Positions 1 through 60,154 of a stretch of DNA of 64,000 bases are shown piece after piece. The DNA is from Amphiura filiformis. Lineage: Eukaryota; Echinodermata; Ophiuroidea; Amphilepidida; Amphiuridae. A program made the translations under genes and the position numbers. The stretch is taken from NCBI RefSeq assembly GCF_039555335.1, contig NC_092636.1:59771991-59835990 (forward strand), read 5' to 3'. The notes under the pieces are model-generated. The model did not search any database and was not told the DNA's origin. It worked only from the letters and a program-made list of their open reading frames with translations. The first letter of the stretch is position 1; each line of letters opens with the position of its first letter.

Positions 1-487
1 TACTAACTGGCAAGACCTGTTCCAGAGATTCTACTGCATTTGACAAAGAGTCTCCAGGACGTCGTTGACTATTGCCACAGGAGAAGGTGTTTGTTAAAGT
101 ACGGGTAGCTGCATCATAGCGTACAATGTCATGAGAATCTTGTACAAAACACCATATGCTACCACTTGTGTAGCAAAGCCCTCTCACATCATTACTAGCA
201 ACACCTTCCTCATCATGCTCATCTGTCAATACGGGGATCACTATGGGATCGAACAACCCATCGGACAGATTGAAGACGCGAAGATTATTTCCGCAACTGA
301 TCCAAATTTCGTTTCTGTCCTTTACTGGCGTGATACATTGGCATGGGGCTGGCTCGACGCTGATTGTTATCGTGTTGAGATGATTCCATTTCGAAATTGG
401 TTCATCTGTTAAGGTTTGACGCTTGAAGATAGCGACTTTGCCATCATTCATACCAACGAAGAGAATACCATACTTATGGCCAGGTAG
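1..487 (-). CDS. LRRK-A exon: WD40 part 3, runs off left edge
   Basis: At least 487 bp after acceptor atcag|, phase 0. It codes YGILFVGMNDGKVAIFK, matching the start of the last gene B exon (KYLFVGQENGTVSIFK), then CQCITPVKDRNEIWISCG and IWCFVQDSHDIVRYD, typical WD40-like blades of the LRRK C-terminus. The stop codon lies outside the window. Confidence 0.92.
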
Positions 488-3400
488 CTGATGTGGTATC
501 TGTATATATATAGCATGAACAAAACAATCATATAGTAGTTAAATAAACGGTTCCAAAAAAAAAGTAGGTCTCCTCTAAGACATTTTGGTATAATCCAAAA
601 AAAAACCCAAAAAACAAACAAAAACAAAAAACTACCGGTACTTGATCAAATCAATTTTCTTGTTTTAATGTTTGGAACATAGTAGACCGATTAGTTCTGC
701 ATCAAGTTTGCTGTTTTTTGTTGCTACTTTTAAAAATCTTCATTGAGAAATACAACCATTTTTGGCCAAAAAAGTTGCTGCATTTGTCTACAAAGATTTG
801 AACAACAATGATTTTTCTTCAACCAACATTCGGCCTTACCAATGCACTTCCATGTTTCTCCGTACACTTATGATAATATATTGAGGAAGGTTCAGACGAA
901 AGCCTTGTCTGGTTGAGAAGAACAAGTTTGCCTGCTACTAGGTTGTACGTCTTGATAATCAGTTCCTGGAAGAAACAGGCAAGTGGAATTCTAATTTAGC
1001 CATTTATCTAAAACAAAATCTACAGTGTACTTCTTAACATTAATATATTGATCTTATTTACATGAAATGAGTCAAGGAAGCCAATAATCGCATTTATATA
1101 TCCATAGATCTTCCAGTTCTTGAGTTATGACAATATATATTTATATCAACACGAACGTTTTGGGCGTTTCACCCGTCCCTTGAAAGATCATGCACATGGG
1201 GCGGAAATGTCACCTCTTATATCAAGCCTTAGGATCTCCTGTATAGAACACACACCATTTCTGTTGTGTGTCAGCTTTATTTATCTCAATATTTGAGTGA
1301 AAAAAAACCCGCTAGGTAGTGCTCCTCTCCGATCCACCTTGAACAAAGCGTAGCGTAAATGATAATATTGAGCTGCAGGCCATGACATTGATTCTTAATC
1401 TATGACGATGATGGTAACAGTGATGAGAATCGACGAAAGGTAAGTTCACAGAGAACATATCCACTTAATAACCCGTTGTCTCTCCTGGTGTATTGAAGTT
1501 AAGTTACTCCTCGCAATCATGTAATAGACTACACTTTGTATGGCCCTTCAAGTTTCAGGGCTCCGTTAAGAAGTATAAATGCGCTAGGGGTATAATTACT
1601 ATTAGATCTGTCAAAAACATATCCATCGCGTACATATCATATAGCATACTCAGCGTAAGACTCAGCCTACTCGATAATGTTATACAAGGGGTCTTTTTAT
1701 CTTTTCAGTTTCCGTAAGTCTTTTGTTCAGATACACAGCAAAAAATAAGGAGTAAAGTGCTACCGACTAAAGTATGTTGATTAAAAAATAGACCAATTAT
1801 TTACTCATCAACGAGTAAAAGACGATATTTGACACAACTCTTTAAAAGAAAAAAAAATGGTCAATGGAAAGAAGTAAAATATTTTAATCGCCACATTGTA
1901 TTTTACTCAAATCGCGTAGTAAATTCAACACGCGGAGTAAGTTTAATTCGACGACGTATTAAAATTCATGTCCATCATGGCGTATAAAAGCGGAGCCGGG
2001 ATGCGGGTGCAGTGTCTGCTGGTGGAATGGAGTTTGTCAGCAGTACAACCAATGTTTGAAGGTACTAATTTCATTACTATTATTCATAACTTTATGTCCA
2101 TATACCTGTTACACAATTTAGAAATCTTATTGTATGATTTGAACCGGATATAGACAGGTTTTTAAGTTAGTTAAGCTTATCAGTAATTGTCATCGGCTCA
2201 CCATGCTAGCTGTGTATTTGCGATCGTAACTAATGTACTAGTCTGAGCAACCTCGAAGTACATACGCTGATGTGGACCAGGCCCGGGGACCAGGGGCGTA
2301 GGGTAACTTGGGGCAAATTGGGACACAGGGTAATTTGGGACAGTGATTTCGGAAATACTTTTATACCTTAAAATAGTCACATTTTGCCCTTTTTTGCAAC
2401 AAAATAACTTTGATATAATGTCTATTTATATTTCAAACCGTTTAAAAGTACCATTCTTCATTAAACAGGAACTTCTGAGGGCCGTAAGCTTAACACATCA
2501 AAATAAGTATTCCATTTGTTTGTCATGTCTAAGCAGAGGTCACGACTTGTGGCTCAATATCTGAATCAATGGTCCGGATTAGTGTTTCTCAAATTAAAAA
2601 ATAACTTCTAAGCTACCCTTTCAATTAAATAAGACAAAATTGTACCTTTTTTCTTCGAAAATTATAAGAAAAGCTTTCTTTTAGAAATATGCCAAATTGG
2701 GGTAAAATGGGACGCCATTGATTTACTGTGTGCTAACTCAAACTGTCCCATTTTGCCCCAACAAAAAAGTCCCATAGTAAATCAATGGCGTCCCATTTTA
2801 CCCCAGCTGTCCCATTTTACCCCAGCCTCTGTTACAGAAAAATCTTGCAGTGGGGTAAAATGGGACGCCTTAAAGACACCTTAATAAAATAATGAAGCCG
2901 GAAGCCGACCGGCACCAATTTTTGTGAAACGTAAGTCTACTAGACTCTTGGCGATGTACATTTTGTTTTGTAGTGGTCACTTGTCGCAAGTTGCCGGGTA
3001 TTAGTATTATAGCCGAGTAAAATCTGGTGGGGCAAAATGGGACATTAGGTGGACCAATTTGCCCCACTTCCCCCTACATGTAGCAAGCGGATAGGGTGGA
3101 CAAAGTCCATGGGCCCCAAGCAAAAGCGAAAATGAAGTGGATAGGGATCAGGGCTGATAAAGGAGATGTTTAGAAGGCCTCACACTACTCCTTGTCCATA
3201 TGCCCCAAAGCTCTTGCTACGTCCCTGATCCTGATGTTGACTCGTGCCACATAACTTTTGTTGCAGTTATATGTAGTAGGAGAGTGAAACCATTGCAAAA
3301 TATCACTTGAAATTTTTTTCCATAGGCAGTTTTCTTTTTCAGTCCATTTATAATATTGATCTATATTTTACTTACAGATCAGATGTGACTTTGGGATTTT

Positions 3401-6400: not shown

Positions 6401-9400
6401 AGACTACCACTTCAGAATAACAATGACTTACAAAAACTTTTACAGATACGGAAACAGAAACTGAAAAGATAAAACGACGGAAGATGTACAATGGGCACGA
6501 ATTAGTCGAAAGACCTATAGTATCATCTACATACCGCCGTCCCAACGACGTGTGTCCTTTCAAATGCGAATGCGCATAGTACATGTCCAATTTCTTCTTG
6601 GTCTGCAATCTTGATAACTTTGCCGTTTATGTCTCCTGTAGCCACATCACGTTCTATAACCTGGCCATCGTGGTTCCAGATATACACCAAGTACTTGTCA
6701 TCCGTATCATTCTATTGGAGTGGAGTGACATCATAATGAAAATAGAATATTATGTCAATAATAAAAACGTAGTGATTGATTCACTTAAAACTAGCAAAGA
6801 ACCAATGCCATCCAAGAAAGACAAATGAAATGGATTGGCCACACACTTAGCCTCCCTAAGGATGATCCACTTAATATAATGCTTCATATCAACCAACAAA
6901 GGACCAGCGCATAAGAGGGCAGCAAAGCCCAAGAGTACGAAGAGAAACCTATGTTGGACGACGCCCTACTTTTACGAAACCAGAAAGACGGTCCAAGATA
7001 TAAGTTAATTGAGAAAGGTCGCGTCCTACTGCTTCATAGCGGACCGATATAAAGAGAATAATAAGAATAGTATCAAATAAAGAATATAATGCAAGAATAA
7101 AGGACTGTGAATTGGTACCTGAAAAGATGAATATAGTAAAATAATATGGGAATGCTATTAGGTGAATCTTGTATAATCTCAATGGTAGAATCAACAAAGT
7201 AAAAGTAATGTAGACGTACCTGATCATCACAGTTTGTGTACAAAACCGCAGTTGGGTCGCTCTGCAGCGCAAGACCTCTTCGAAGACATGTGGAACTGAG
7301 GTCTTGCAAGGTATCTAGCACCGCTTTCTCACTCGGTCTATCATCAGGATTCACTCTCCAGCAGTCCTTCATTAAGCTTTCCATATTAGGCAACTGCGGT
7401 CGCATGGAGTAGTTGAAATACTTAAAATCCGGTCTGGAACCTGCTGTGACTTGCGATACAGTATTGAGATACGATGTGTGTAGAAATGGTGTTGTGCCAC
7501 TTATCAAGTGATATAGGACCATGGCGTACGAAAACCAATCGACCTGGGTGAGTTGGGAAGTGGTGAAAAATCATGAAAATAAAAGAAAGAAGACAGTGTG
7601 TTTAAGTTAAAGTAGTATGATAACGGGTTTTCTGGTGTTTATATTTAAATAAAATATTTGATGTACTAGCGAAGACGTTTTTTGGCCTAGATGGGAGCAG
7701 AGTTAAATGTGCGACATAATATTTAGAAATAGATACGGTACCTTTTCGTCAAAAGCGAGGCCTTTAATGATCTCCGGTGCACAAAACTCATTTCGGCCAA
7801 CGTCTCCACGAACTCCTGCTACATCCATTTCATGCGATATTCCATAATCAGCCAACTTGATATTGATTGGAGACCGAATTTCAGTGGAGAACAGCAACAC
7901 ATTGTTGGTCTTGATATCTGCGTGAATAACACCTACACTATGGAGATAGCTTATCACCGAAGCTAATTGGTATGCAATCTTGAATGATAACTTTCGCGGG
8001 AGAACGGATTCATGGACAACCTCGCCTACAACAAATTCTCGAATTCGTTGCTTGTATACGTCATTTATATAAGATGCCAAATCTCCAGAAGGAGCAAGCT
8101 CCATAGCGAATGCAAGTCGCTGAACCGATACCCCAACCAACTCAAGAACGCACGGGTGGCTGAGTTTGGCCATCATGCGTACTTCATACCGTAGTCTTGG
8201 AAAGGCACCCATAATCGAATGCAAGGCCGTTTGAATTCCTGAACCGGATTGCGACGAAGTCGAAGATGTTGGAGAAGGCACGCTGCCTGCTTCATCTCCA
8301 ATCAATAAGTCAGAGGAAGATGTTGACGACGGTGAGGATGACGAGGACTGACTTTGCGGTTGATGTTGTAACCATCTGCGGAGCAGGGTTTTCACGGCAA
8401 CATGTTGCCCACCATACTGCGCGGTGTAAACTTCACCAAAACTACCTTTGCCGATTCTGACCGGATCCAATATCAGCTCTTCGTCGTTCAGGTGCTCTAC
8501 GGTAAGATCTGCCAAGAACAAATCAGGAGCAATCGCTGCCGTTGGAACAGTATCACTTGGATGCTTCGGGCAGACAACGAATTTCCGACCTTTAATGGAC
8601 GTTGCCCTGATCAACTCTTCCAAGGTGAAAAGGTGGTACTTTGTGTCTTCGGGGATCTGTTGACGACTTTCTTCGGAAGTGTTAGTTTGGAAATTCTGAA
8701 CGCAGATTGGACATGGGATGTATCGTATAACGCGTGGCCTACCGTCCAGTCTATTTTTGGTTAGACCTGCAGAAAACAACCACAACAAACTAACGTCATT
8801 TTTTGAGTCCGTTATACTACTGGCGAATTTAATACTTTCATGATTATTGGATTACAAAATAGGAATTAGTGCAATGAAAATTATTAATCTCATTTTATAT
8901 CCATTATTGCTTATGGAGCAATAATCGATATAAAATGTGATTAACAATGAGATTGACACCTGAGTTTATCCGATTCAACTGCGCTGAAGTTAAAGCTTCG
9001 TGGTTGATGTAAAAGTCAAGGATTTAAATCTTTTCAACATTGATAATTATTAAACATAAGCATCGCATGGGCTGCAACTAGGCGTGTTTGGTAAACTAAG
9101 AACACCGCTGTTTTAGATGTATTATAAGTTGCACAACATTCGGTCATTTATCATGAGCGGACAGAGGAATTATGACGATGTAAATATCAGTATCGTTATC
9201 GTATTATCGCAAAATGTTTAAATAAATTACTACTAATGTTGTTTCTGCAGTTTGCGAGCAAAATCTAACGTCTCATTTACCTGGATACCATTCTTTCATC
9301 AACTTTTCAATGTGGTCGACGATAAATCCCAATGGAGAAAACAAGTTGTCCTTGCTCAGTAAAGTGATACGCAAACTGGGATCATTGAAAATCTGCATAG

Positions 9401-12400
9401 GCTCGATCTTAATTTCACCATCGTCATGGCGGATGAATAGTCCTTCTTGACTAACGCAAGGCAGAATGTGTTCTAGTTGAATCCTGGAAAGAAAAAAAAA
9501 CCCAGTATTATAAAGGGACAATATGATTTTGTCAACATCGTAACCTACCTTCTAGTATGTTATTGTAACATATTGTCGTGGTAGCAGGGTTTAAAGGCCT
9601 GAAGTGTTTATTTGCGAAGTCGATACTATTCTGTCAAGTCTAGTAAACACACAATAAGAGTGGATGGGGAACAACCTAAGTCCAACTGACTGGGGATGGA
9701 GATCACAAGATGGAATTCTTGTTCAAGTAGAAACAGAACTCGCTGTTGCACCAGACACATTGCTCAACATGGTATCATGTAGATGCAAACAATATGCAAC
9801 AACATGACATGCAGCTGCAAGAAACTTGAGACTCTTCTGTACATTTATGTGCAGCAAAGGCTGTGGTCAGTCTTGCAGCAACACAGCACCTGTACCAGTT
9901 GGGGACAATGAGGAGGAGACCCAACCAACATTGCAGAACATTAATGCAGAAGACACAGTGCAAGTTGATTAAGTATACCATTTGATTGCATTACATCACG
10001 TGGATACCGATGTGAACATTGGCTTAAGTAATCTTGGCATGTCATGTTGTTACGGCCATCTTGTTGGAGGCAAATAGAAAATAATGGTAACTATTGTATT
10101 GTACACATGGTAAAAGCACTGAATCAATATTGTAAAATAATGATGGTAATAATATAGTGAATTTGGATGATGTGCATTATAAGTCTGCTTACAAATCATG
10201 AGTTTTGAACTTTCTCCAATGCCAATTAACACATCTTAAACACTTCTTAGGCGGTCATTTTGGACGCCATCTTGTATTTTGGCTTTATATCTAGGTATTG
10301 AAATCCTTCGAGTACATTTTGAATATATCCATTGTACCTCAAACCTATGTGAGATATTTTGTATATGTATTTAACAAGTCTGGTTGAAAACTAATTTTAC
10401 TTACTAAAATGGCTGCCATTTTGGCCGCCATATTGGAATTTGGCTACTTAGGATCATTGAAACCTCTTGCAAATGTTTTTAAAACATTCCTTGTACCTCA
10501 AAATATATATTTAGATGCTTTGTTTGTGATTTTAACATGTCTGGGTGCAAAGTTATGATAAAAACTGAAAATGGCGGCCACTTTGGACGTCATCTTGGAT
10601 TTTGGCTACTTAGGATCATTGAAACCTCTTGCAAATGTTTTTAAAACATTCCTTGTACCTCAAAACATATATATTGATGCTTTGTTTGTGATTTTAACAT
10701 GTCTGGGGGCAAAATTATGATAAAAACTGAAAATGGCGGCCATTTTGGACGCCATCTTGGATTTTGAAGGAAGCACAAGGGGGATTCTCGGGGACTTTTG
10801 AAATTTGATTCTATACATATTCCTGGACCTATCCTGAAAAAATCAGCTTGTTATGAGAAATGTTAACCTTTTTATGATATATGAGCTAATACTATAATTG
10901 GCCTACAAGTATTTTGGCTTGAATCAATGCTTATTGTAGACTGAGAGCGAATGCGATTTGACTTCGCTCATGTTCAGAGCCCAGATGCATCATCAATAAA
11001 GTTGTTTTCATAAAATCATGACCTACACTCTCTGAGATGTGCTCGGCCAAGAAAAGTGAGAGAAACGATTTTCGTCAAGAAAGAGACCAGCCCACCCTTA
11101 ATAGGGACGGGGGCCGAGAACTTTCCAAAATCTATGACACTTTGCTTCTAGAAACACCTGACACAAGGTCAAAAAAGGACATTGTCAACAGGAAGTAAAT
11201 GTTATACATCAGTCATTCACCAGTATCACACCGCTGATGACGGAGTATGGTTACTCTGAAATTATTCGGACAAAAACGTGAGTGTTGTTGACTAGTTTTA
11301 AACTTTTCTTTGATGTCTACTACCAACACGTATAAATCTCTACACTCTCGTTATGTCTTAGGGTTTGGATTAGAATTAAGGTTAGCATATAGTTGGGGTG
11401 GCGAACACTACAATGCTCAAGATGAAACGGGTTGCGTGATAAATTCAATCATTTACCTGAATTGATTCAAATCATGCTGTTTAATAGAGACCAGCAGTCG
11501 TGCCACAAGACGACTCCAGAAACCTGGTGGTGTGTAAGCCATCTGGTACCACCTCATCAGTTTGTTTTTGTATGGGTTTTCTCCAATAGTCTCAATCCAA
11601 GGGCGTCCATAAGGAAGGGCAGACGGTATAATGTACTTACGAGGTTCAATTACGGATTCTGGGCTAGTAAAAATAAACAAAGTGTTACGTATGTTACTGT
11701 TTCGATGGTATTGTAAGAAAGACAAACTCTCGAAAGATTTTGTACACCATCACACCAAACTACAATGCAACTGATCAATAAGAAAGACAAAGATACAAAC
11801 ATATTCCAATAGCAATAAATACAGTGACTATGGTGAAAAAGTTATACTTTATATTATAATACACACTATATTAAGAAATTGTTTAAACGTTGTCGTGAGT
11901 CTCAGGTTTAAAGACGACAACGAATGCCTAAAATTGAACGCCATGTCGATCCTGGTTTCAGCTATACTTACTCACCAAGATTTGATTGTGGACAACACAA
12001 TTTCAAATCTAGCCAGTAGCTGTAAATACTCCTTGAAATTGTGTTCTCCAAATCCGGATGCTAGGGAGAGTCGTCTGAGTTGTGATTCTGTGACAATTCC
12101 CTGGTGTTCGTTGATATCGTTGTTCTTGAGTCGGACTACTTTTACCAATGTGTTTGATAACCAAACAGGGTCCAGGAAATAGAGTCTTGTAAGCTTATAC
12201 GAATAGTCTTGTATATGGATCAAAGTTCCGCAATGTTGAAGGTATTCCACGACTAACAAATAAAAAGCAAAAAGTCTTTAATTTTATTTTAGTTCCCCAA
12301 ATGCAACTATTGATAGAACTAAAGAAATGTTTGTCTGTATTCAAGTATCAAGATTGTAATTTGGGATTACCTTCTTCAACGTCTTTCGTAGTCTCAATGA

Positions 12401-33344: not shown

Positions 33345-33577
33345 AAATTGACTGCAGATTGGAAAAACAAAAATATTGTTCACCTGTATTCAAAGTGGCT
33401 TGATCATCCGAGATATTCTACCGATCTGGTTCAGATAAACCTATCTCATAATGGCCTCCAGGTTATTCCAGAAGTGTTGATTTGGGGTCTCCCAGCATTG
33501 CGATCTTTGAACCTATCCAACAATAAGCTTACCACATTGCCGTTGCCAAGTTCTCCAGATCAAATCCAATTTTCGAA
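33345..33577 (+). CDS. LRRK-B exon: first LRRs
   Basis: 233 bp, acceptor gtcag|, donor gtaagt, phase 0 to 2. It codes HPRYSTDLVQINLSHNGL and LRSLNLSNNKLTTLP, the direct match of gene A exon 22202-22431. Confidence 0.92.
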
Positions 33578-43030: not shown

Positions 43031-43121
<91 letters not shown>

Positions 43122-43123
43122 TT

Positions 43124-43179
<56 letters not shown>

Positions 43180-49100: not shown

Positions 49101-52100
49101 GACGGAGGAACACAAACCGGCTGGGACCGAGACAAGTTCAATTGGCTAGAGGACGTGACTTGTGCAAGTGACACTAAACATAATAGGCCCCGCACTATTT
49201 GTAGATACCGCAAACGCAAAATATACGCTAGCTTAGCAGCCACTGAGGCGCCAATCATTTAATATCGCCTTTCATGTCAGCGACTCGCAGCGAGTACTCA
49301 CGTACGTTGTGTGGAGAGCTGTGGATCTATGTAACCGAATAGCTGTCCATCAATATCTGTGTGTCCATTAACCGCTGCATGCGCTGAAGCCCAGCGCTGA
49401 TTGACAGCCAATTCTCAGTCTTAACATTTTATGATGACGATGATTGGCCAAAGAAAAGACGTACTATGAGGTTGTTGCCAGACGGTTTGTTTAGTGACAA
49501 AGGATCACAAATCGGCTGGGACCGAGACTGTCGCCGGAAAGACGACCAGACCTGCGCGTTTATGGAAATAAAATTAGAATAAATGTTGGTGACTTATAGT
49601 ATGCTACACGGTCTACACCTGAATTTGCAAAAAGTATAAATCCGCTACCGTGATGAAACAGAATCATTTTGCTTTAACAAGGTGCGCTACCGTAGTGTTG
49701 AACCGTGTGGATGGTTGGGGTGAGGTTAACGGATTGACAAAGCACAACACTTTTCTTGCGTGGATTTGAAACTTTTATGACCTCGAGCTGTATAGCTTTT
49801 GCGATTCGAAACCGTTACCGCATTAGCATTGTGCCTTGTGATCATTTTACTTGTCCTAACCCAATTCAAAATATAAAGTCTTGAGTATGACGCCGATAAC
49901 ATTCCGTTGTCGACAATGTTACTTCTGCTGCTAATGTTAGTGATGGTTGTGGCCATTAAACTGTGTTTAATTAATCTCAATCATTGTTTTATTTAAATCC
50001 ACACACTTTTATGTAGTCACGGTCCTCTGCACCTGAAGGAAGCTTATATAGCTGTAGCACAGCGTGACATATTCATCCGACACAGCGATGGAGAAATTAG
50101 GGTAGAACCGATGCGATTTCCAGACGGGTATTCGGGTATCCGGTTGACCGTACGTTGTCGACATAAAAGGTTTCGTCCTATGGGATATCTTGTCAGTCAC
50201 ATTGAAAATCTGATTGACGAATGGTATCCAGGTAAATCAAGTCATGTTGTTGTTTATGATATAATTACTGCAAAATACCTGGTCATGTTTCATAATGTGT
50301 ATTATTATTTTTATTATTATTAGTGTTCTCATTATTATTATCATCATTATTGTTATCATTATTTAAATATCATTTGTGTTATTATCACAGCTCTGAGAGA
50401 TGGCAATTCAATTCGCTGCCTGATACCCTGTACTGTTTGTATGACAATAACACCTAAAATGGACGTGGATAGTAACAACAACGAAATCGGTCAATGCCAC
50501 ATCTTTCCTCTCGGGAATCTAGCTGTTTCAGCAACTATTCGTAAAGCTTCAAGCGTAATATGCCAACATCACAAGGATATCCCCGTTCCACTGAAAGATC
50601 TCGTACCTGATCTTTTCCTTGACGATCTAGACATTCATCATTTGGATTATAGCAAATTGGAGAGCACTGATAAACTTGGTCAGGGTGGATTTGGCGTGGT
50701 ATTGTCGGCAAGATATCTAGGCCAACAGGTGGCGCTGAAGCGATTACTTACGAAAGTATACGATCGATCATCAGAAATATCAGAAGAAGAAGTGTATGCA
50801 GTTCTAGACTGCATTCCAAAATTACGCGTAGAGGTAGCCATGATGTGCCGTCTTCACCATCCATATATTCTAAAACTGATCGGAGTCTCCATACAAAATC
50901 TCAGCTTTATTATGGAGTTTGCCCCTTTAGGAGATCTACATTCGGAAGTAAATCGGCAATACCGATCGCGTAAATCGGACCATTTCTCTCGTACAATCGT
51001 CCACGGGACTCTTCTTCCCAAAGTGATAACCTACAAAATCTGCCGACAGATCATCATGGCGCTTGAATACATGCATGGAAAGAAGGTGATACACACAGAT
51101 ATAAAGACGGATAACGTGTTACTCTTTTCACTTGATCCAAGAGATCGGATCAACGTGAAGCTGGCTGATTATGGAATCGCACACAGCTTGGATGAAATAG
51201 GCGTAAGAGGATTTGGTGGGCTCCACGTGTTCTGTGCTCCGGAAATAATGGCGGGAAAAGCATTCAAAGAAAAGGCAAGACGAGTGATAACAAAAATAAA
51301 GCTGTATTCAAATAATTGATGCCCAATAATTGTCAGTGAATTTTGACAAGACTGTCCTGGTTTCTCTTCTTGTTTGACATTTCGCTTGTCCGACATTATA
51401 ATCACTTCTGTTGAGACAATCAACAACAAAGTCGAGTCGAGAACGAGTGGATTTTCGAACAAACAAGTCAACTAGACTTCCTTGTCAAAACAATGGTTAA
51501 GGTCGTTGCCTTTGAGGCAAAAGGGTCCCGGGTTCAAATTATGTAGGTCATTTCAAGTATATAGGTACTATCACTATGTGGTTACCATAAGTATTTAAAT
51601 ATTCATTTACACTCTGCGCGTAACAACAACATCCATATTCACATCCGCATACTATAAGGCTCTAAATGTGATCATGTGCACGGGAGGTCAAATTCGTTCA
51701 TTGCAAAATGCTTATTACCTTTATGTTCATCAGGTGGATATTTTCTCTTGGAATGCTGATCTACCATGTCATGAGCGGTGTTGTGCCATTCCACGAAATA
51801 CCAGACTGCGTCCAGGTCAGGCAGATCATATCTGCTGGCACTCGACCACATTTTAGCCACCGAAACTACAAAATGATACCACACTTCGACTACTTGAAAG
51901 ATGCTTTGGAATCATGTTGGCAAAACAGTCCCCACACTCGCCCATCAGCGTCGGAATTGCATGAGGTTATGAGACATCCAAGTTTCTTATGTTTGGAACA
52001 TGCAATGACAGCATCAGGAGATAGAGATGCAATCTTATATGCAAATTCATCACTCGAATATCAGGTAGGCTTATGTTCTTGATCTCAAGATATTTCTTTC

Positions 52101-54788
52101 TTTGTTAATTGAGAAGATAAACAGCTGGTTATATTCAAAGGTCTTTAGGCGACCTGGTACTACACTCTGATAAATTTTGTGACTAATTTTGCATTTTTCT
52201 CAAAAAATAACTACACACTGGTAACAAAAGTTATGTATGTACCTGAAAGATCAGTGTCTTTGAAAAGAGCAGTTGCAGACATACACAGGTGATGAGTACA
52301 TCCCGCTTATTGTGCGGGGCGATACATTCAAAGATAATGTGTACCCATTGCTATGGTAAGTAAACGGGTTACGTAACTAATTCTACGGCTAATTGGTCGT
52401 CATATTGCATCATCCTGACTTTTGAGGGCGTTTTTGCTATGATCGCAACCCCTACTCGTCGTATCCGCCAAAGTTATTTCACAGGATATACGGATTATAT
52501 GAATGAATGTATAAATAAATGAATGAATGAATGAATGAATGAATGAATGAATGAATGAATGAATGAATTAATAAACGAATAAAAAAAATTACGGCAATTT
52601 CTATGTACATTGCATCTATACATATTTTATTACTTAGACTGATGAAGACCATTGCATATTTCAATGGCAAGGAGATGGCGAAAGAAGATGCTTTACTAAG
52701 TATGAAACAGGCACAATGACGGAGAGGAGAGAAACATTTCCTGGGGATCGAGTTACTTGCGCCATGGCACATGCAAATACCCATGTCCTAGGAATAATGG
52801 TAGGAGCAAATTACGCATTTTCCGCAGAGATTTTCCGTATGTCGAACAAAGTTTTTTTTTTCATTCCATTGACATAATGTTTCTTATAAGATACATGGCA
52901 TTTTTGTTTTTAAGGACAGGCTTTTTATTGAAGTATTGATGGCCACATATTGTACAAATTTTAAGAAAATAAAATAGCTTAAAACTGAATGAAAACTCAA
53001 TGTCCACTTTCCTCATAAACCCAGATTTTAAATACCCTTTTAAAAAAAAAACCGCCCAAGAATTAAGAACGAGCACTTTGTTTTTCATAAAATTGGCAAG
53101 TTGTGGTATTCGAACATAGAGGTGTGTCGTGTTTCACTAATAAGAATTTGTCCTTTCTATTATAAAATTTATGCTTTAAGCTATAAAATAGCCGCTTGAA
53201 ATAAAGGTGCATCAATTTGCCATATGTTTCATCACCGAAAGCTTTTAATATCCAAGTCGAGTGATTTAGCATCTCAAATTGTTAGATATTGCAATTTGTA
53301 TGGCTTTTGATTTAGGACCAGTCAGGACGTAAAGCTATTGACATCTATGTATACAATGAAGGTCATGGGCAAAGATGGCGACTCTCTCACTCTGCAAGAC
53401 GCAAAGTAGGATATACAGTAAGCTCTCTATGCTGTAGTTTGGACACCAAGAACCAGGTAATGCATTTAAGACATAATATTGTATACCTTTAGGAAAACAT
53501 GGGATGCTGAGTTGATCCTGGGTGCGATGGTTACTTCTAGATGTTGGATGATTGAATACTGTGTCTTGCGTTTGCTCATTTTCTTCTGTGCCTAACAATT
53601 TGAAATTTGTTCGGCGCCTGACGAAATTTAATAATGAAATAATAAAACGAAAGAAAAAACCAACAGTTACCATTTTGCTTATAATTTTGCACACTGGGTC
53701 GAACCTGTATAACTCCAAGGTGTATATTCTTCTATTTCATTTGAAATCTGCCCTGTTCCTGTGGAAGTCCACAAAGAGAATTATGTTTTTCAAATGGAAT
53801 TGTTAAGGTTATTTATTTTGAAACTAATACTCCCCTTGTATATGGTTTTATCTATATCTTCCAAAGAGTGAGTATTTCAAAAGGAAGCTACCCAATTATC
53901 TATTCTATTTGAAATCCATACTCCCTCTTTGGAAGAAATTATCTATATCTTCCACAGGGGGAGTGTGGATTTAACTAAAATAGCCCATTTTATTCACTTC
54001 TACAGATCAAGTACTTATTTGTCGGTCAGGAGAATGGAACAGTTTCCATCTTCAAACCAACTTCAGTAGCTTTGTCATCCGCCAACGTGTTGTCATTTCA
54101 CCACGATCCGAAGATTCTGACGCTGAGCATCACTCCGCAAACCTGCGTTTGTATGAGTCCGTCAACCGATAACAGCCGTATGATTGTCGGTTGCGGTAAC
54201 AAACTGAAATTTATAACAACTAAAGAACTTCTTGTAGAATATGTTTCGATAACCGTGTCCAACAATGAAGATGACATCGTGGAGAGTATCGTAGTGCGGG
54301 ATGACGACATTTGGTGCTTTATATCAGAGTCATCTATGATTGGCTGCTACAGTATGGAACGTAAGGAGTTACGTACAGCAATAGACACTAGTGAGAATGT
54401 GTACGGAAGGTCATGCGCTTCACAGATTCACAACAATTGCGGCATGCCACCATTCTGTACTTCAAATGCTTTGACGGTTGGAGCGGTGTTAAAAGTAAAT
54501 GATACGCTTTGGATAGGCAGAAGCGATGGCAGTATACTGGTTATCAATATCGACAGAAACGTGTCTCCTGAAAAGGGCATCGGATATCCGCTAGCTGTTC
54601 TAACAACCGATTTGATGTCAAACCAAAGTCGACGGAATATTGGTGCAATACGCAAGCTGTATCTTAGTACGAAGAGTATTGTCGCATATGCAGATACAGC
54701 GGAGCGCAACGAGAGGCGGTTGGTTGTTTGGGAAAAGTGGGGCAACAAAGAATTCAAATATTTTCTTGATATGGATGACGTATTGTAA
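33345..54788 (+). CDS. LRRK: LRRK-like ROCO kinase, gene B (16 exons, stop codon seen)
   Basis: Paralogue of gene A on the other strand. In order it codes about 8 LRRs, Roc (P-loop GPE-KSGKT, G3 WDLKG, G4 GTHLD), COR, kinase (LGQGGFGVV, VALK, HTD, DYG, APE) and WD40, with stop TAA at 54786. Exons sum to about 1,528 codons. Exon phases match gene A nearly throughout. It lacks the equivalents of two LRR exons of A, and no ankyrin exon is seen upstream. The intron after the main kinase exon has a GC donor, and the exon at 51734 is two bases short of the frame expected from gene A. It may therefore be a damaged copy, an assembly error or a variant. By family it would be a dimeric Roc-COR controlled kinase. 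Its 5' end is uncertain. Confidence 0.9.
33708..34780 (-). mobile_element. LINE fragment (RTE/Jockey-like reverse transcriptase)
   Basis: Minus-strand frames carry KGVRQGCSASPYLF, then LRYGDDTTLL (the Y-x-DD active site), LKLNVKKTKLLV and FKYLGSVKTSNANC, followed by a broken C-terminal part. It is truncated at the 5' end, with several frame breaks in the tail. 41-bp direct repeats (33708-33748 and 34740-34780, 3 mismatches) flank it. It sits in the first intron of gene B. Confidence 0.85.
35111..35314 (+). CDS. LRRK-B exon: LRRs
   Basis: 204 bp, acceptor ttgcag|, donor gtataa. It codes LESLDLSNNLFETFP, LSNLVMKNNRISQLP and LRNLDLSHNLL, matching the last three of the four LRRs in gene A exon 18806-19077. 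The step from the previous exon skips four to five LRRs present in A. Confidence 0.92.
35767..35958 (+). CDS. LRRK-B exon: LRRs
   Basis: 192 bp, acceptor tttcag|, donor gtaaga, phase 2 in and out. It starts with a basic then acidic linker (KRWFRRQEDDE) and codes LISLNLSNNPIMDIP and LQVLKLDG. Counterpart of gene A exon 16293-16436. Confidence 0.9.
36215..36437 (+). CDS. LRRK-B exon: LRR end and first half of Roc P-loop
   Basis: 223 bp, acceptor tgtag|, donor gtgtgt, ending in phase 0. It codes LERLPKELGKLNNLHRLSL, then the beta strand MKLIIIGPE that opens the P-loop. The split point equals that of gene A exon 15661-15892. Confidence 0.92.
36638..36748 (+). CDS. LRRK-B exon: second half of Roc P-loop
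   Basis: 111 bp, acceptor ccag|, donor gtaaga, phase 0 both ends. It starts KSGKTHLVTRL, completing Walker A. At 37 codons it is shorter than the 52-codon counterpart in A, and the switch I stretch is reduced. Confidence 0.9.
37160..37800. repeat. Dispersed repeat, unoccupied copy
   Basis: ttctcttataaatgcatcta, cacagtttccacctcgatac, tcaagtgttcccttcatcca and gtcattaaatgaaagagcac recur in order at 56195-56730. The family is unknown. Confidence 0.75.
38203..38376 (+). CDS. LRRK-B exon: Roc G3 region
   Basis: 174 bp, acceptor tacag|, donor gtaatt, phase 0 both ends. It codes GEIQFTVWDLKGG (G3) and AMYILVWDLRNGKEEI. It is followed by the largest intron of the gene (about 7.4 kb), which is full of mobile elements. 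Confidence 0.93.
38632..40199. mobile_element. Element with ~205-bp terminal inverted repeats
   Basis: The left arm (38632-38836: tacagcctgtctcaaaaaaa through cacaattgtgccactttta) pairs with the right arm (39994-40199). TA at each edge. It contains a nested hAT-like insert. No transposase frame. It lies in the long intron of gene B. Confidence 0.9.
38906..39303. mobile_element. 398-bp hAT-like element nested in the previous one
   Basis: Ends cagtggcgtagccag and ctggctacgccactg. A perfect 8-bp target duplication atgcactc at 38898-38905 and 39304-39311. G-rich interior, no transposase. Confidence 0.93.
41125..41205 (-). repeat. tRNA-like sequence (SINE or tRNA pseudogene)
   Basis: Minus strand: ttggcttagtgatactatcc as an A-box-like D arm, then gacgggttcgattcccacc as a T arm with the B box. 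The acceptor stem does not pair well, so it is not called a working tRNA. Confidence 0.5.
41340..41505. repeat. (AAAT)n microsatellite
   Basis: About 35 units of aaat in two blocks. Confidence 0.95.
41577..41650 (-). repeat. tRNA-Leu/Ser-like sequence (degenerate)
   Basis: Minus strand: atggcctagcggtctaaggc, like the D arm of tRNA-Leu or tRNA-Ser, and cgcttgttcgaaaccg as the T arm. Stem pairing is poor. Confidence 0.5.
41860..42330 (-). repeat. Dispersed repeat, intact copy
   Basis: Minus-strand order ttggggcgtttttc, aaatttgatatttttggtga, gcgacatgccaaagacaaat, cataccta-cgtta, gactgcattttggcgttttc and gatatctggt matches 54868-55640. The family is unknown. Confidence 0.7.
43028..43181. repeat. 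(CTTT)n microsatellite
   Basis: About 38 ctttc-type units with one interruption. The long Phe/Leu/Ser frames over it are artefacts. Confidence 0.96.
43190..45780. other. Intron of LRRK-B, mostly unassigned
   Basis: Apart from the small element at 44168-44466 I see no exon, RNA gene or recognised repeat here. The short open frames lack homology or splice support. Confidence 0.5.
44168..44466. mobile_element. 300-bp inverted-repeat element (TA-type MITE)
   Basis: tagcccccgaatgaaaagta at the left pairs with the right end (catttcattcgggggcta). The arms of about 95 bp include gtgtgaattttatagccgaa. TA at both edges. Confidence 0.85.
45781..46065 (+). CDS. LRRK-B exon: Roc G4
   Basis: 285 bp, acceptor tttcag|, donor gtacgt, phase 0 both ends. 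It codes SRIIIAGTHLDKIRG, with the THxD base-recognition motif, and ends in NLKRLLFCTASN before a basic turn. Counterpart of gene A exon 13792-14049. Confidence 0.93.
46400..46559 (+). CDS. LRRK-B exon: Roc-COR junction
   Basis: 160 bp, acceptor tatag|, donor gtaaca, phase 0 in and one base over. It starts IPGAHMILMDRINDK and has TEEELITIIGTIP, matching gene A exon 12371-12557 (TEAELAATIEQMP). Confidence 0.9.
46699..46981 (+). CDS. LRRK-B exon: COR core
   Basis: 283 bp, acceptor ggtag|, donor gtaagc. It codes YLQDCGRVLCVTDHTYRL and RLYFLDPSWLCDALMD, the COR signature, and ends DYLQLLARFEIAFP like gene A exon 11976-12252. Confidence 0.95.
47313..47974. mobile_element. Inverted-repeat element, CAGCAAACACA family, copy 2
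   Basis: Ends ctagcaaacac and gtgtttgctggg. Read on the minus strand, its right end matches the start of copy 1 through gaaaacgtttaaatgtcggg (gaaaatg... in this copy). It lies in the gene B intron between the two COR exons. Confidence 0.8.
48295..48498 (+). CDS. LRRK-B exon: COR C-terminal half, part 1
   Basis: 204 bp, acceptor catag|, donor gtgatt. It codes PSALVMDP and RWYKMPDVPAGFWSRLVSRI, then a basic helix. A self-complementary 1-kb element starts about 40 bp after the exon. Confidence 0.93.
48538..49546. mobile_element. Self-complementary 1-kb element
   Basis: atcgccgga at both ends in inverted order, then ctcggtcccagccgattgg against its reverse. A second inner set of the same motif plus gtttagtgacg and ccgtctggcgacaacc gives nested inverted repeats. 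It fills most of a gene B intron. A related piece is at 47170-47245. Confidence 0.8.
50017..50231 (+). CDS. LRRK-B exon: COR C-terminal half, part 2
   Basis: 215 bp, acceptor tgtag|, donor gtaaat. It codes DIFIRHSDGEIRVEPM and GYLVSHIENLIDEWYPG. Same phases as gene A exon 9281-9483. Confidence 0.93.
50300..50375. repeat. ATT-rich microsatellite
   Basis: tattattatttttattatta and attattatcatcattatt just before the main kinase exon of gene B. Confidence 0.85.
50391..51274 (+). CDS. LRRK-B exon: kinase domain, main part
   Basis: 884 bp, acceptor tcacag|, phase 0 out. It codes a Cys pair lead-in (CLIPCTVC), then LGQGGFGVVLSARYLG, VALKRL with the beta3 Lys, a short acidic stretch in place of the long insert of gene A, LRVEVAMMCRLHHP with the alphaC Glu, VIHTDIKTDN catalytic loop, LADYGIA and CAPEIM. 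The exon ends AFKEK before gcaaga, a GC donor, where gene A has AFDEK before GT. The HRD Arg is Thr. Confidence 0.93.
51490..51545 (+). repeat. tRNA-derived SINE-like sequence in the kinase intron of LRRK-B
   Basis: atggttaaggtcgttgcctt (A box) and gtcccgggttcaaatt (B box) at the spacing of a tRNA. There is no clear acceptor stem. Confidence 0.5.
51734..52064 (+). CDS. LRRK-B exon: kinase C-lobe, frame disturbed near its start
   Basis: 331 bp after atcag|, donor gtaggc. The reading frame from about base 15 on gives GMLIYHVMSGVVPFH, then CWQNSPHTRPS, a good kinase end that joins the next exon in phase. The first bases read VDIFS in the frame set by the previous exon, then the frame slips: two bases are missing, at a CT-rich spot, against gene A exon 7220-7543. 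This may be a real mutation or a sequence error. Confidence 0.85.
52497..52572. repeat. (GAAT)n microsatellite
   Basis: About 17 units of gaat, in the intron before the first WD40 exon of gene B. Confidence 0.95.
52638..52799 (+). CDS. LRRK-B exon: WD40 part 1
   Basis: 162 bp, acceptor ttag|, donor gtagga, phase 0 both ends. It codes CIFQWQGDGERRCF and AMAHANTHVLGIM, the match of gene A exon 6535-6711. Confidence 0.87.
53316..53456 (+). CDS. LRRK-B exon: WD40 part 2
   Basis: 141 bp, acceptor tttag|, donor gtaatg, phase 0 both ends. It codes RKAIDIYVYNEGHGQRW and YTVSSLCCSLDTKNQ. It has the same place and phases as gene A exon 840-965. Confidence 0.85.
53805..53985. repeat. Small inverted/direct repeat around tatctatatcttcca
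   Basis: tatctatatcttcca occurs twice, with ggtagtg-free arms atactcccc / gggggagtgt inverted about it. It looks like a short MITE or SINE remnant before the last exon of gene B. Confidence 0.45.
54006..54788 (+). CDS. LRRK-B last exon: WD40 part 3 and stop
   Basis: 783 bp after tacag|, ending in TAA at 54786. It codes IKYLFVGQENGTVSIFK, MIVGCGNKLKFI, DDDIWCFISESSMIGCYS, DTLWIGRSDGSILVI and RRLVVWEKWGNKEF, successive blades of the LRRK WD40 domain. The protein ends DMDDVL. Mobile-element sequence begins within 100 bp of the stop. Confidence 0.93.
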   Translation: MKYLFVGQENGTVSIFKPTSVALSSANVLSFHHDPKILTLSITPQTCVCMSPSTDNSRMIVGCGNKLKFITTKELLVEYVSITVSNNEDDIVESIVVRDDDIWCFISESSMIGCYSMERKELRTAIDTSENVYGRSCASQIHNNCGMPPFCTSNALTVGAVLKVNDTLWIGRSDGSILVINIDRNVSPEKGIGYPLAVLTTDLMSNQSRRNIGAIRKLYLSTKSIVAYADTAERNERRLVVWEKWGNKEFKYFLDMDDVL

Positions 54789-54867: not shown

Positions 54868-55640
54868 TAATGACCAGGCCACCGAGTGCGAATGTGTATT
54901 TATTTTGGAAGGTTCATGTTTGCTTTAAATTTTGGGGCGTTTTTCCCAAATTTGATATTTTTGGTGATATATAATAAAATAACAAACTGCAGAACAAACT
55001 TCAAAATGTCCAGCGAACATCAGTATCGGCTGATTTTCAGGAAACGCAAGTTTGACTCATCACTTCAGTTTCTATCAAACAAGACATTGTCTGCAAAATT
55101 CTCTCTCTTGTTTATAAAGCACTTTGCGGACAAGCTCCATCTGACATCATTGACATGTTTCAAGTTCGAGTTACGCAAAAGGCAGCTTAGATCATCATGC
55201 TCAGATGGTACCTCTCTTGTTGAGCCAAGAACTCAATGTGTTTCATTTGGTGACCGAACTTTTCTATGCTCCCAGATTGTGGAATAAACTATCAGGTCAA
55301 ATTTAAAAAAATACCTTTGAACAGTGTAAGAAGCTCCTGAGGAGCCACATATTTCAGGATGCTTATCAGCAGTAGTTTTTGAGCTAATGAATATGCACCG
55401 TTGAACATTCTGAAATGATTTTGGCGTTATGACACAAATGTGTTTGATTAATTGAAAGCGACATGCCAAAGACAAATCTTTGGGCACATACTTGATACAG
55501 CTTTTTTCCGCATACCTACGTTACCATTCGTTTTGGTGATTTACTAATATTATAAATGTGACTGCATTTTGGCGTTTTCAATGCGTTTTAAGCTTACCGT
55601 GAAATTAACGCTGATATCTGGTCATGCTCCTTTTAGAATT
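54868..55640 (+). repeat. Dispersed repeat copy split by a LINE fragment
   Basis: Same blocks as 41860-42330. The match breaks at about 54980 and resumes at about 55445 (gaaagcgacatgccaaagac). The material between is LINE-like. It starts within 80 bp of the gene B stop. Confidence 0.7.
54985..55440 (+). mobile_element. LINE 3' end fragment (CR1/L2/Jockey-like)
   Basis: Plus-strand frames contain SLVYKALCGQAPSDIIDMF and LVEPRTQCVSFGDRTF, the typical LINE C-terminal stretch ahead of APRLWN. Several frame changes; old and truncated at the 5' end. Confidence 0.65.
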
Positions 55641-56194
55641 TCTGTCTGATCGTCGTCTACTTTCACAATACATCAATATAACTGGCTCTAAAGGCGATGC
55701 TTTGAGAGCATTTAAAGGAGAATTCCGTAATCCTAGCATCCTCTTTTTGTGAGTTATGCATGATAATGGGTAATACACAGCTCCATAGGCCACTGTTGTA
55801 ATTTTAGAAATTAAAATTTGACGATATTTTTGCTAAACGAATTAACCTGAAAGAAATGTTTGGTACACAAACATTATGTAGCCAGAGGTATCCAGTGATA
55901 TAAAAATCTCAAGAAAAGTGGGGGATGAGGCTGTGGATCACGAAATGCCCTTTTAACTCCCAATGCTTTCATTGTTTATCACATAGAAAGGCACCTCGTT
56001 ATTCCGTCTCCGACTTTTTATATTAATCACCAATTAAAGTGAAAACTCCCATCCCTAATAATAGACATAACAATATCGATTATTATTATATTCTAATTAT
56101 TACATACTTCTCATATAAAGTGCACAATACTTTCACCATTTTGCAACAATATCTGGATCTGGGGATTCCCAGTATGTTGCAATAGTAAACAGAC

Positions 56195-56730
56195 ATATGG
56201 AAAGGTTTCTATACAAAAAAAGATTCTCTTATAAACCATCATGCGCACAGTTTCCACCTCGATACACCTGAGCACACATTTTCGTCCAAGAGCTCTCAAG
56301 CAAGCAGTGAATTGTCTCCGCACAGTCTTTGATTACGCTTCACGAAATCTCAAGTGTTCCCTTCATCCAATCATAATTTTCTATATCAAACGAAGCTAAC
56401 ACTTCCCCCTAAAAACACTAGGTCTTAGTGGCGTAGCGTGGGTCATAACATTGGGGGGCACCGACCATGATGGGGGGGGCACAAACCGTTGTTTGGCAAT
56501 TTTCAGATTGATGGGGGAAGCACGCTACGCCACTGCTAGGTCAACAGATAACGCAATTCAATGTAGGTTTTAAAAGTCAAAACCTCAAATGTTCCTTTAA
56601 TATTTTTCAAATTTTATGTCATTAAATGAAAAAGCACACTTATATTGTCTATATACTATTACTAGCGTCACAAGAATAAGCATGTGCCAATTCTCTTTGC
56701 TAAAGAGTGCTTACAAATTGATATGTTTTA
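56195..56730. repeat. Dispersed repeat, copy carrying a small hAT-like insertion
   Basis: Same order of blocks as 37160-37800. It is interrupted at 56426-56535 by an inverted-repeat insert, where the other copy reads straight through (attaggtcaacagataacg). Confidence 0.75.
56426..56535. mobile_element. 110-bp hAT-like MITE
   Basis: The ends tagtggcgtagcgtg and cacgctacgccactg are inverted repeats. It is flanked by ctaggtct and ctaggtca, an 8-bp target duplication with one change, as in hAT elements. Confidence 0.85.
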
Positions 56731-56757
56731 AGAAATGTCATAAGGGACCCGGGTAAG

Positions 56758-57544
56758 CAGGGCCGTTCCTAGTGATTTTGCCGTCCTAGGCAAAGCCTCT
56801 CCCTGCCGCCGCCCCACCAAAGTCAGTCAACATTAATAGGTAAATTTTCACGGGAAAATTTTCTGGACACGTGACCAATGCGTATCAATGTGAGTGTAAC
56901 CTCGAGCCTGATCTCTGACCCCGGCGGTGACCTCGCTATTCAAGTCTTAGTAATTTTGAATTGGAATAGTATTTTTGACCGCAATTTTGATAGAAATTTG
57001 TGCATTGCAAATTTATTGAATATTATGTTATCTTAATTTTTCACAATATCATCAAAACGTAATTTCAAAATATCTATCTACGGAAAAAATATTTATCTAC
57101 GGAAACTCTTACCATAACATTATTAACTTGCGACAAGTAACTTATTTTGCCTCAAAGGAAGAATTCTTCCTATTCAAATACATTGGAAGAACACCCGCTG
57201 TGCTCGGGGTCGCATTCCATAATGCTAATATGTCTGCGCCCATGGGTGTCACGTGTCCAGAAAATTTTCCCGTGAAAATTTACCTATTAATTCTGACTGA
57301 AAGTATACCAAAAGAGTGTTCAGTTTTTGACCTATTTGTATACTGCCCATGACCGTTTTCCTTCTTTTCTGTATTTTTATCCCACTTTTTGTTCTTCTCA
57401 TTTTTTTTTATCCGCCCTCATTTTTATTTCCCTTTTCTTTCTCCATTCCCGTTTTTTCTTTTTTCGCCCTATTGTTTTTGCGCCCCTCTGTGTTTGCCGC
57501 CCTAGGCGAACGCCTTACCTGGCCTAATGGTCGGAATGGCCCTG
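56758..57544. mobile_element. Inverted-repeat element with cagggccnttcc ends and a nested insert
   Basis: cagggccgttcc at the left and ggaatggccctg at the right, followed inward by gccgtcctaggc / gccgccctaggc. No clear target duplication. A second inverted pair (taaattttcacgggaaaatt and its reverse, about 56826-56880 and 57248-57300) marks an inner element. Confidence 0.65.
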
Positions 57545-58739
57545 ATAAGGAACTTCCTGATTATTACATGATTAGGGACTTCCCATCTCACATGAAATAT
57601 GTCGCAATACATACACTTCTCATTGTTTTTAAAAAGTGAACTTCGACTTCCGGGATCACATACATTCTTGCCCCCATGCCAGCGGTGGATGGCTTTGGTG
57701 GTACCCGTGCTTTTTCTCCTCACTGGTTCAGAAGTGCCTGACAACATGAGGCGTAATGACAGCTAATGACATCAGGGCACTAGCTTAATTGACTTGGCGT
57801 GAGCGGAAGTGAAATAGTCATATAATGTGAGAAATACGCTGGGTGATATGCATCATAGACCATCGAAACGATTTTATAGGTTATTTAAAGGTTATTTCCG
57901 CGGGGAATTCCGTTATTTTCTTTTGACATGCAATGCACAACTCGTGATACAAATCACACTGATTTGTATATTTACATTATTTATCCACATTTCATTTACA
58001 TTACGTTCACATGTGTATTCCTGCTTTAGCTGATAGGGTGCTAAAACAAACCCACTTGGTATAGGACATTGTGTTCTTTGAACAGCTGGGGTCGGTGCGG
58101 ATGTGGTGCGGATGCGGGGAGCTGTCGCCGATCTCATGATAGCCGGTCGGGTGATTTCGTGATATTAGGCCTATTAATCGTTCTTCAGTCTTATTGACGT
58201 TCAAAATCCAAAACAATTATCTGAAAGTATCACATTCGAGATATGGACACAGAAGGAAAAATGGTGGCGGGATTCAAAGAACTGTAGTTATCAATCATTA
58301 ATCTAGTGCTGATTGCTGTATAGTAAAGCATGGAGGAAAATATAGGTAGGTGGTTATACGTGTTTCGAAAGTTTTCGGTTTTAGTCAAATATAATTTAGT
58401 CTAGTGGCAATCGCCATGACCAGGCGCATGACCTTGCTCGAGAATATCAGGAGAAACTGTTTCTAGGTGATATTGACCTGCTGATTCTATTCTGACCCCC
58501 TGAATTTACATGAACTTGACCCTTTAATTGGACATGAAACGGAAACTGATTGCAAAAGTTAATGAAAGTTCAAATCAAAATCATGATTTCAAAAGTGTTA
58601 CGAACGGTTTCAATGACATATTGGTGAGAGGGGGAATATAAGAAGCACTCTTTTATTTTGGAGGGGAAAATTATCAAATGCGCCCAATTTGTGCAATTTT
58701 GGTGCATTAATCTCTGCTAAATGTCATTCAACCACTGAC

Positions 58740-58870
58740 CAACCGCATAGCATTATTCGCAAAAGGTTGCCAGAAAACGCTTAAATGTCTGGTTATAAGA
58801 GTATAAAATGTTTTTATAACATGTATTCAAAAACATTTTTTGAAAACTTACTGCATAATATCCTAATATA
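58740..58870. mobile_element. Fragment of the CAGCAAACACA family
   Basis: attcgcaaaaggtt, gccagaaaacgc and aatgtctggttataagagta follow the same order as in copy 1. The terminal motif is missing. Confidence 0.6.
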
Positions 58871-58877
58871 ATGTTAG

Positions 58878-58992
58878 TTAAGGGATCGGATAACAACGTT
58901 TACACAGTATTATTTGTGGGACATGAGAGACATCAGACACACCAAATTACATTCTGAGTACGAGGAATGTCCTGATGATATCAAATAATTTC
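58878..58992. mobile_element. Half copy of the palindromic element
   Basis: ttaagggatcggataac, gtgggacatgagagacatca and gatatcaaataattt follow the left arm of 20418-21084, then stop. Confidence 0.7.
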
Positions 58993-59909
58993 AGGCGGCG
59001 GATGACATGATCGAGCCGGCAACTTGTGAAACCGCCCAATATAATCGGTTAGTTTTATTATCAAACCCCAACGGTTTTAGTTTGTATTTATATTATTTAT
59101 CAACATAGGCCTATTTGTTTGTGATATTTCAAGCGTTTTAAAATTTCAAAATAATCCCATTCAATTACACGGTTGACGATGAAAAAGTACTGAATTTAGA
59201 GAATGCAATGCGGCCACCACCTGAATAATTTGATCGATAAAACTTGTTGTACGTCATATAGGTACACTTTCTAATTCATCCAAACGAAACATTTTGTCGA
59301 AACAATATTTTTTTTTTTAACCATTTTAGCTTATTACATAGGCTACCACTACCGTTTTCATGTCTTTAATTTCGAACATTGTATACTTCTGTATTTGATG
59401 TGAACACTTTCATGGTTAATGAACCACAAACTTGGCACGACCTTCAACCTTGTAAATTTATTTCACTTTTTGTCACGTCTAGACTAACCGGCTTATTACG
59501 TATGAATTATTCAGTAATATTTTAAATTTACCATCTTGCAACTTAATCATCATCTGCTGGTCAGGTACATCCACCCTCCAGACTAGTTTGTAGCCGTTCC
59601 TTCGCACACACTTTATGGTTTGGGTTAGGCCAATTTTCCGGGTCGACTCAATGGACACACTGCAGCAAAGAAATCGAAACCTTCCAATTATATGAAGGCG
59701 CAGACCCAAGAATAACACAGGTTTCAGGGCTAGGGCTAGACTAGTTTTTAGTTATGATTGTTATTATAATTATGGTTAGCATTCGGGGTAGGAGTTAATT
59801 AGGGCGAGGTTAGGATTGCGGTTGTGGGTGGCGACCACTATTGTAAAGTTGCACATTACAGCCACTATATCAAGAAATCGTGGTTTTGATATTGTTTTAA
59901 ATATCATAG

Positions 59910-60154
59910 AATCAGCAGCTGACCAGCTACTTCAGTACATCCAAGATCCTGACAACTTCTCTCCAGAAGGATTTGTACAACAACTAGAGTTGTTGGCACC
60001 GGAAGTAATACAAGGACTATTCTCAACCGATAATGCCAACAGACGACCTGAAAGAGCCAAAGAATTGCTTCCGGCAGCGTGCGAAAGGGGCGACTTAGAG
60101 GCGGTGGTATGGCTACTAGTTATGGGAGCTGATCCATCCGTTATAGCACAAAAG
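59910..60154 (+). CDS. LRRK-C: single ankyrin exon of a third copy (partial)
   Basis: 245 bp, acceptor tcatag|, donor gtatta, with the same length, phases and borders as gene A exon 25357-25601. It codes ELLPAACERGDLEAVVWLL and GADPSV. The first 67 bases are identical to gene A, and the rest differs at scattered sites with the frame kept. No further exon of this copy is seen before 64000; retroelements fill the space. It may be the start of a third gene running off the right edge, or a stray exon duplicate. Confidence 0.8.

Follow-up and report, generated by a model that had tools for sequence, protein, structure and literature searches.

Four clades of LRRK kinases are described in animals, and the clade description of Reimer et al. 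2023 (PMC10643122) places echinoderm, spiralian and cnidarian members in LRRK1, LRRK2 and LRRK3. That description gives LRRK1 two hallmarks, a long loop in the WD40 domain (human residues 1791-1907) and a COR-B loop longer than 27 residues that carries phosphosites and whose Phe blocks the kinase; LRRK3 proteins are described there as being without the WD40 loop, with a COR-B loop of 20-30 residues and a long alpha-C region as in LRRK1. The gene count given in a preprint (PMC10659525) for the sea anemone Nematostella is four LRRK genes. Here we analyse a 64,000-nucleotide stretch of the ophiuroid echinoderm Amphiura filiformis (GCF_039555335.1, contig NC_092636.1, forward-strand positions 59,771,991 to 59,835,990; hereafter the window), which contains two LRRK-type genes, A (minus strand) and B (plus strand), and a single related ankyrin exon, C. 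An earlier note on this DNA had taken one or two LRRK genes as usual for an animal; with three clades represented among echinoderms and four Nematostella genes, that figure is too low.

Two divergent LRRK-type genes

We consider it likely that A and B represent a pair of old, paralogous animal LRRK (ROCO-family) kinases, derived from an inverted local duplication that would have left them head to head before they diverged. Read from stop to stop, the frames fall into two ordered, collinear series that run through LRR, Roc, COR, kinase and WD40, one on the minus strand between ~25.6 kb and the left edge, the other on the plus strand between 33.3 and 54.8 kb. The ordered chain of matches between the frames of A and B reaches a score of 792, compared with 31.8-66.1 when the A frames were shuffled 20 times; some transposon matches lie inside the real chain. 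The DNA is of animal type, with interrupted genes and a G+C content of 36-42% in 4-kb steps, and its repeats resemble those of echinoderms. Genes were modelled with a small Viterbi model that combined splice-site weights with the matched pieces as anchors. Neither model contains an in-frame stop, which inside the anchors is no independent test because these had to be stop-free. The outgoing phase is equal at 13 of the 14 donors common to the two genes, the fourteenth being the kinase junction of B.

Domain searches with Pfam recovered LRR and Pkinase in both genes, together with Roc (7.1e-14 in A, 6.5e-15 in B) and COR-A (1.1e-12 and 1.2e-12); COR-B scored 2e-11 in A and 5.2e-6, just under the cut-off, in B. 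The LRRK2-type beta-propeller passes the cut-off in B and narrowly misses it in A (25.8 bits against 26.9), where the window edge cuts the domain, and ankyrin repeats were matched in A only, under the cut-off. In both genes the LRRs precede Roc, COR follows Roc directly, the kinase follows COR and WD40 follows the kinase, as in ROCO proteins of the LRRK type. The chain and the domains together bear out the earlier description of two near-complete LRRK paralogues facing each other 5' to 5'. The parts of gene A are as follows.

~95-25,611, minus strand: gene A, an LRRK-type ROCO kinase gene of 21 exons and 1721 residues, cut by the left window edge
25357-25611, minus strand: ankyrin exon 1, the 5'-most exon identified (open frame, splice sites; weak Pfam Ank match under the cut-off)
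25015-25087, minus strand: ankyrin exon 2 (gene model; weak third-best ankyrin-consensus match, expectation value (E) 0.28)
22919-23043, minus strand: ANK-LRR linker exon (gene model only, without a homology anchor)
22202-22431, 21523-21653, 21272-21438 and 18779-19077 (span 18779-22431), minus strand: LRR exons (frame matches, gene model, Pfam)
16293-16436 and 15661-15892, minus strand: last LRR exons, the second leading into Roc (frame matches, gene model)
15222-15377, 14324-14485 and 13792-14049, minus strand: Roc GTPase exons (P-loop GPSQTGKT, THxD motif; gene model, Pfam)
12371-12557, 11976-12252, 11457-11663 and 9281-9483, minus strand: COR-A and COR-B exons (gene model, Pfam)
7742-8766 and 7220-7543, minus strand: kinase exons (Pfam Pkinase 1.4e-36; best match in the PDB human LRRK1)
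6535-6711, 840-965 (unanchored) and 95-499, minus strand: WD40 exons (frame matches, gene model)

The last WD40 frame of A stays open to base 2, where the window ends. At the other end of the gene, the spliced ANK-LRR piece matches the N-terminal region of human LRRK1 (E ~1e-8), ranked after several designed ankyrin and LRR proteins. An intron of A contains a tandem array (19144-20146) whose period is 146/293 bases. Gene B is laid out on the opposite strand.

33,345-54,788, perhaps from 32,760, plus strand: gene B, an LRRK-type ROCO kinase gene of 15 exons and 1491 residues
32760-32872, plus strand: tentative upstream exon (tblastn to the A linker exon, 16.2 bits, E 0.76, which on its own is not significant; compatible phases, splice sites read)
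33345-33577, 35111-35314, 35767-35958 and 36215-36437, plus strand: LRR exons, the last leading into Roc (gene model, Pfam)
36638-36748, 38203-38376 and 45781-46065, plus strand: Roc exons (gene model, Pfam)
46400-46559, 46699-46981, 48295-48498 and 50017-50231, plus strand: COR exons (gene model, Pfam)
50391-51274 (or to 51303) and 51734-52064, plus strand: kinase exons with an irregular junction between them (Pfam Pkinase on both encoded pieces)
52638-52799 and 54006-54788, plus strand: WD40 exons, with the stop codon at the end (Pfam Beta-prop_LRRK2 4.8e-14; alignment to the LRRK1 C terminus)

The first sure exon of B begins at an acceptor, and no Met precedes the repeats in its frame, so exons further upstream are needed. 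Searching 25,700-36,000 by tblastn with the A ankyrin exons gave nothing significant, and an ankyrin-consensus phmmer search of the stop-to-stop frames of at least 20 residues in the window found no B ankyrin between 25.7 and 33.3 kb. The top three matches of the latter search were C, A ankyrin 1 and A ankyrin 2 (10.5, 9.3 and 9.2 bits; E 0.12-0.28), followed by a chance-like fourth at 6.4; given the weak sensitivity of these searches, ankyrin repeats in B are either absent or beyond detection. A codon-usage scan upstream of B peaked at 10.6, in a tandem repeat, and then at no more than 7.4; the opposite strand gave 8.4, then 7.8 and smaller values. A CTTT microsatellite of 38 copies lies at 43031-43180.

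The two genes have drifted well apart. Across Roc, COR and kinase, 731 ungapped columns with the B junction left out, their identity is 40.1%; neither is therefore a haplotype copy of the other, and a haplotype misassembly of the pair, which the earlier note had named as a possible undoing of its view, is excluded. The unequal LRR content that it had proposed is borne out by a single regular expression, which finds 11 motifs in A and 7 in B. The 131-base (21,523-21,653) and 167-base (21,272-21,438) LRR exons of A match only the known LRR exons of B and have no counterparts of their own in 25,700-36,000. The B intron where these two exons are missing contains a minus-strand reverse-transcriptase remnant (34196-34597; RVT_1 E 5e-4, under the cut-off). 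A repeat with internal inverted repeats is found at 12765-13443 and at 47311-47974, two copies that share 89.7% identity in an alignment 687 long, with a partial piece at ~58,761-58,854. The two full copies were considered as a recent exchange between A and B; this was dropped since they sit in different introns, and we read them as two insertions.

Relationship of the pair to human LRRKs

In four-taxon trees of A, B, human LRRK1 and human LRRK2, grouping A with B was preferred by 17.2 log units over the other two arrangements, with p values in the approximately unbiased (AU) test of 0.996 against 0.004 for each alternative. This grouping upholds the view of A and B as diverged, linked LRRK paralogues and shows that they are not an LRRK1 and an LRRK2 placed side by side. 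That they might be a linked pair from two old clades, such as LRRK1 beside LRRK3, is suggested by their linkage and by human LRRK1 being the best match of both among solved structures, and yet we judge it very unlikely, as placing either A or B beside LRRK1 is rejected (AU p 0.004 each) and both are without the LRRK1 COR-B segment; the specific pairing of LRRK1 with LRRK3 was discarded on the same tree.

The kinases of A and B match human LRRK1 best in the PDB (149 and 145 bits), with LRRK2 next among the LRRKs (84 and 75 bits), and the Roc-COR-kinase region of A, taken without its serine-rich insert, scores 435 bits against human LRRK1 and 269 against LRRK2. Outside animals, relatives were present in none of 8 candidate stretches from viral contigs and in 1 of 51 from prokaryote genomes, a 30% match in a metagenome-assembled genome of Prevotellaceae. 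RNA families gave no match in the window at gathering scores.

Regulatory features combine those of different clades

Both genes retain the Roc P-loop and THxD motifs, and in the kinase domain the Lys, the alpha-C Glu, the Asp of HxD, the Asn and DYG are kept. Other parts depart from the human proteins. The spacing from the COR-B GFW to the WxxG-like site is 30 residues in A and 42 in B, compared with 57 in LRRK1 and 28 in LRRK2, and the Trp of that site is replaced by Ser in A and Ala in B. The LRRK1 COR-B segment is missing from the A alignment and is gapped and weakly aligned in B, where one S-F pair lines up. Rescaling these spacings to human residues 1046-1079 gives a COR-B loop of ~19 residues for B and ~7 for A, an approximate conversion to be set beside the 20-30 described for LRRK3. 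From the kinase Lys to the alpha-C Glu the distance is 68 residues in A, 30 in B, 36 in LRRK1 and 13 in LRRK2; the high value in A comes from a 42-residue serine-rich insert (8237-8362) between the lysine and alpha-C, which B, LRRK1 and LRRK2 do not share. Neither gene has the COR-B loop of LRRK1 or the short alpha-C region of LRRK2. The WD40 loop of B, encoded inside one exon, is 31 residues, short of the long loop of LRRK1; that of A lies past the window edge. In the activation segment, the GTPG that precedes APE in LRRK1 and LRRK2 is aligned with GRNE in A and GLHV in B.

There is an even chance, in our estimate, that A and B both belong to the published LRRK3 clade, in which case only the younger exon C would be lineage-specific. 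The long alpha-C region of both (68 and 30 against 13 in LRRK2), the missing long WD40 loop of B and the intermediate COR-B spacing of B agree with what the clade description in PMC10643122 says of LRRK3, and the tree sets A and B apart from LRRK1 and LRRK2. The COR-B spacing of A, however, is close to that of LRRK2 and falls below the loop length given for LRRK3, a clade that enters this comparison by its description only.

By homology, A and B would work, or would have worked, as GTP-regulated Ser/Thr kinases like LRRK1 and LRRK2, with contacts of Roc-COR and of the LRR/WD40 scaffold gating the kinase. Since both are without the COR-B plug of the LRRK1 active site, and B also lacks the WD40 loop and detectable ankyrin repeats, we predict that the kinases are held off by contacts other than those of LRRK1, with an autoinhibition that would be weaker or different; from the changed activation segment we would expect low activity or other substrates. 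For B these predictions would hold only if its kinase junction is not a true lesion. A bolder proposal is that A and B form a lineage-specific LRRK subgroup that lost the COR-B plug and GTPG. B would also have lost about four LRRs, the WD40 loop and the ankyrin repeats, exon C would show that duplication is continuing, and the subgroup would have relaxed autoinhibition and changed substrates; taken as a whole we regard this as improbable.

The kinase junction of gene B

The kinase exons of A are joined in phase 0, reading EK-VDWFS. At the equivalent place B has GC in place of GT after AAAGAAAAG, with the acceptor before GTGGATATTTTC. As encoded, the piece before the junction matches Pkinase at 2.1e-26 and the piece after it at 4.3e-5, under the cut-off. 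A GC-AG intron was considered here and rejected, since that join leaves the frame. The irregularity touches on the many disabling changes that the earlier note had said would speak against its cluster, but it is confined to one place.

Several points weigh against two intact, paralogous kinases. The A-like join in B (51274 to 51734) reads EK-VDIFS and is then out of frame with the kinase-matching remainder (WIFSLGML). The in-frame alternative, a GT at 51,304 (donor after 51303), scores poorly (-4.1), adds ten residues and is without the Asp found at that position in A, LRRK1 and LRRK2. Without GTPG the kinases could be weak or inactive. The gene models are built from sequence alone, with the 3' end of A and the 5' end of B falling outside them, and the tree includes neither LRRK3 nor LRRK4 nor an outgroup.

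The junction of B may reflect a lesion, unusual splicing or an indel introduced in assembly; of the two copies, B is the one that may be damaged. That B was recently broken and is now a pseudogene, leaving A as the only working gene, we consider unlikely, though by no means negligible. The frame shift of the A-like join and the Asp lost from its alternative would fit such a loss, as would the 5' end of B, where neither a Met nor ankyrin exons were found; against this, all other exons of B are open with phases that match those of A, the 260 codons of the C-terminal exon run open as far as the stop, and an irregularity in one place can also come from unusual splicing or from an indel made in sequencing or assembly. 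Two old, diverged paralogues remain our preferred account of A and B.

Exon C and flanking retroelements

Beyond gene B lies one further piece of LRRK-like sequence.

59,900-60,154, plus strand: exon C, a single ankyrin exon with a donor site, a close relative of A ankyrin exon 1 (DNA and protein match)

C is 86.9% identical to A ankyrin exon 1 over 259 bases of DNA and 81% identical in protein, and the match ends at about the exon borders. The earlier note had counted three LRRK loci; its ankyrin exon is real, but a third kinase locus is not borne out, as the window contains this one exon and no kinase for it. Within 55,000-64,000, A ankyrin exon 2 finds its best match on the wrong strand (E 0.023), and the 3.8 kb that follow C contain no plus-strand match. 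C is probably a younger copy of the A ankyrin exon, either the 5' end of a third gene that continues past the window or a leftover.

Whether C is no part of a third gene, being either a dead fragment or an exon that gene conversion from A has overwritten, is nearly a balanced question, with the odds slightly on the negative side. The missing second ankyrin exon, in a 3.8-kb interval that holds retroelement-like frames, speaks for it, as does the longest run identical between C and A, 71 bases (permutation p 0.002), a run that fits local constraint or gene conversion. C nevertheless has an open frame and has kept its donor, and its changes relative to A are fewer per nonsynonymous site (0.10) than per synonymous site (0.31), an excess of synonymous change with a Fisher p of 0.004 on rounded counts. 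The same similarity and identical run are what could be cited for B and C being haplotype or assembly copies of A, an explanation we find scarcely credible in view of the 40.1% protein identity of A and B, the arrest of the A-C match at about the exon borders and the synonymous divergence of 0.31.

Reverse-transcriptase-like frames follow C (RVT_1 E 2.4e-4, under the cut-off). The region 60425-63131 carries retroelement-like frames on both strands and a 45-base inverted repeat (60,590-60,634 and 63,087-63,131), and looks like one element inserted in another; part of it is presumably Penelope-like.

Comparison with known LRRKs

Autoinhibition of LRRK kinases matters for Parkinson's and bone disease, and natural LRRKs without the LRRK1 COR-B plug, one of them without detectable ankyrin repeats, would be useful comparisons for the contacts that keep these kinases off. 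A and B are new members of a known family, and their duplication, though real, is fairly ordinary and on its own unsurprising; the interest is in their mixed regulatory features.

Human LRRK1 (PDB 8e04) shares with them the order ANK-LRR-Roc-COR-kinase-WD40, with ANK in A only, the long alpha-C region and the best match to both kinases. It differs in sequence (33.2% identity to A and 32.8% to B over the same 731 columns, where LRRK1 and LRRK2 share 31.5%), in its autoinhibitory COR-B segment, which A does not have and which cannot be recognised in B, in the long WD40 loop that B does not have, and in the GTPG missing from both activation segments. Human LRRK2 (PDB 6vno) has the same Roc-COR-kinase-WD40 series and nearly the COR-B spacing of A (28 against 30), but its identity is lower (30.8% to A, 27.8% to B) and the alpha-C region is long in A and B. 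The metazoan LRRK3 clade, as its description in PMC10643122 goes, is unlike A in that the COR-B loop of A is as short as that of LRRK2, and like the pair in the long alpha-C region, the absence of a long WD40 loop (B) and a COR-B loop shorter than that of LRRK1. Judged by aligned motifs and spacings, A joins a COR-B length like that of LRRK2 to an alpha-C region like that of LRRK1 and LRRK3, and B appears closest to the published description of LRRK3.

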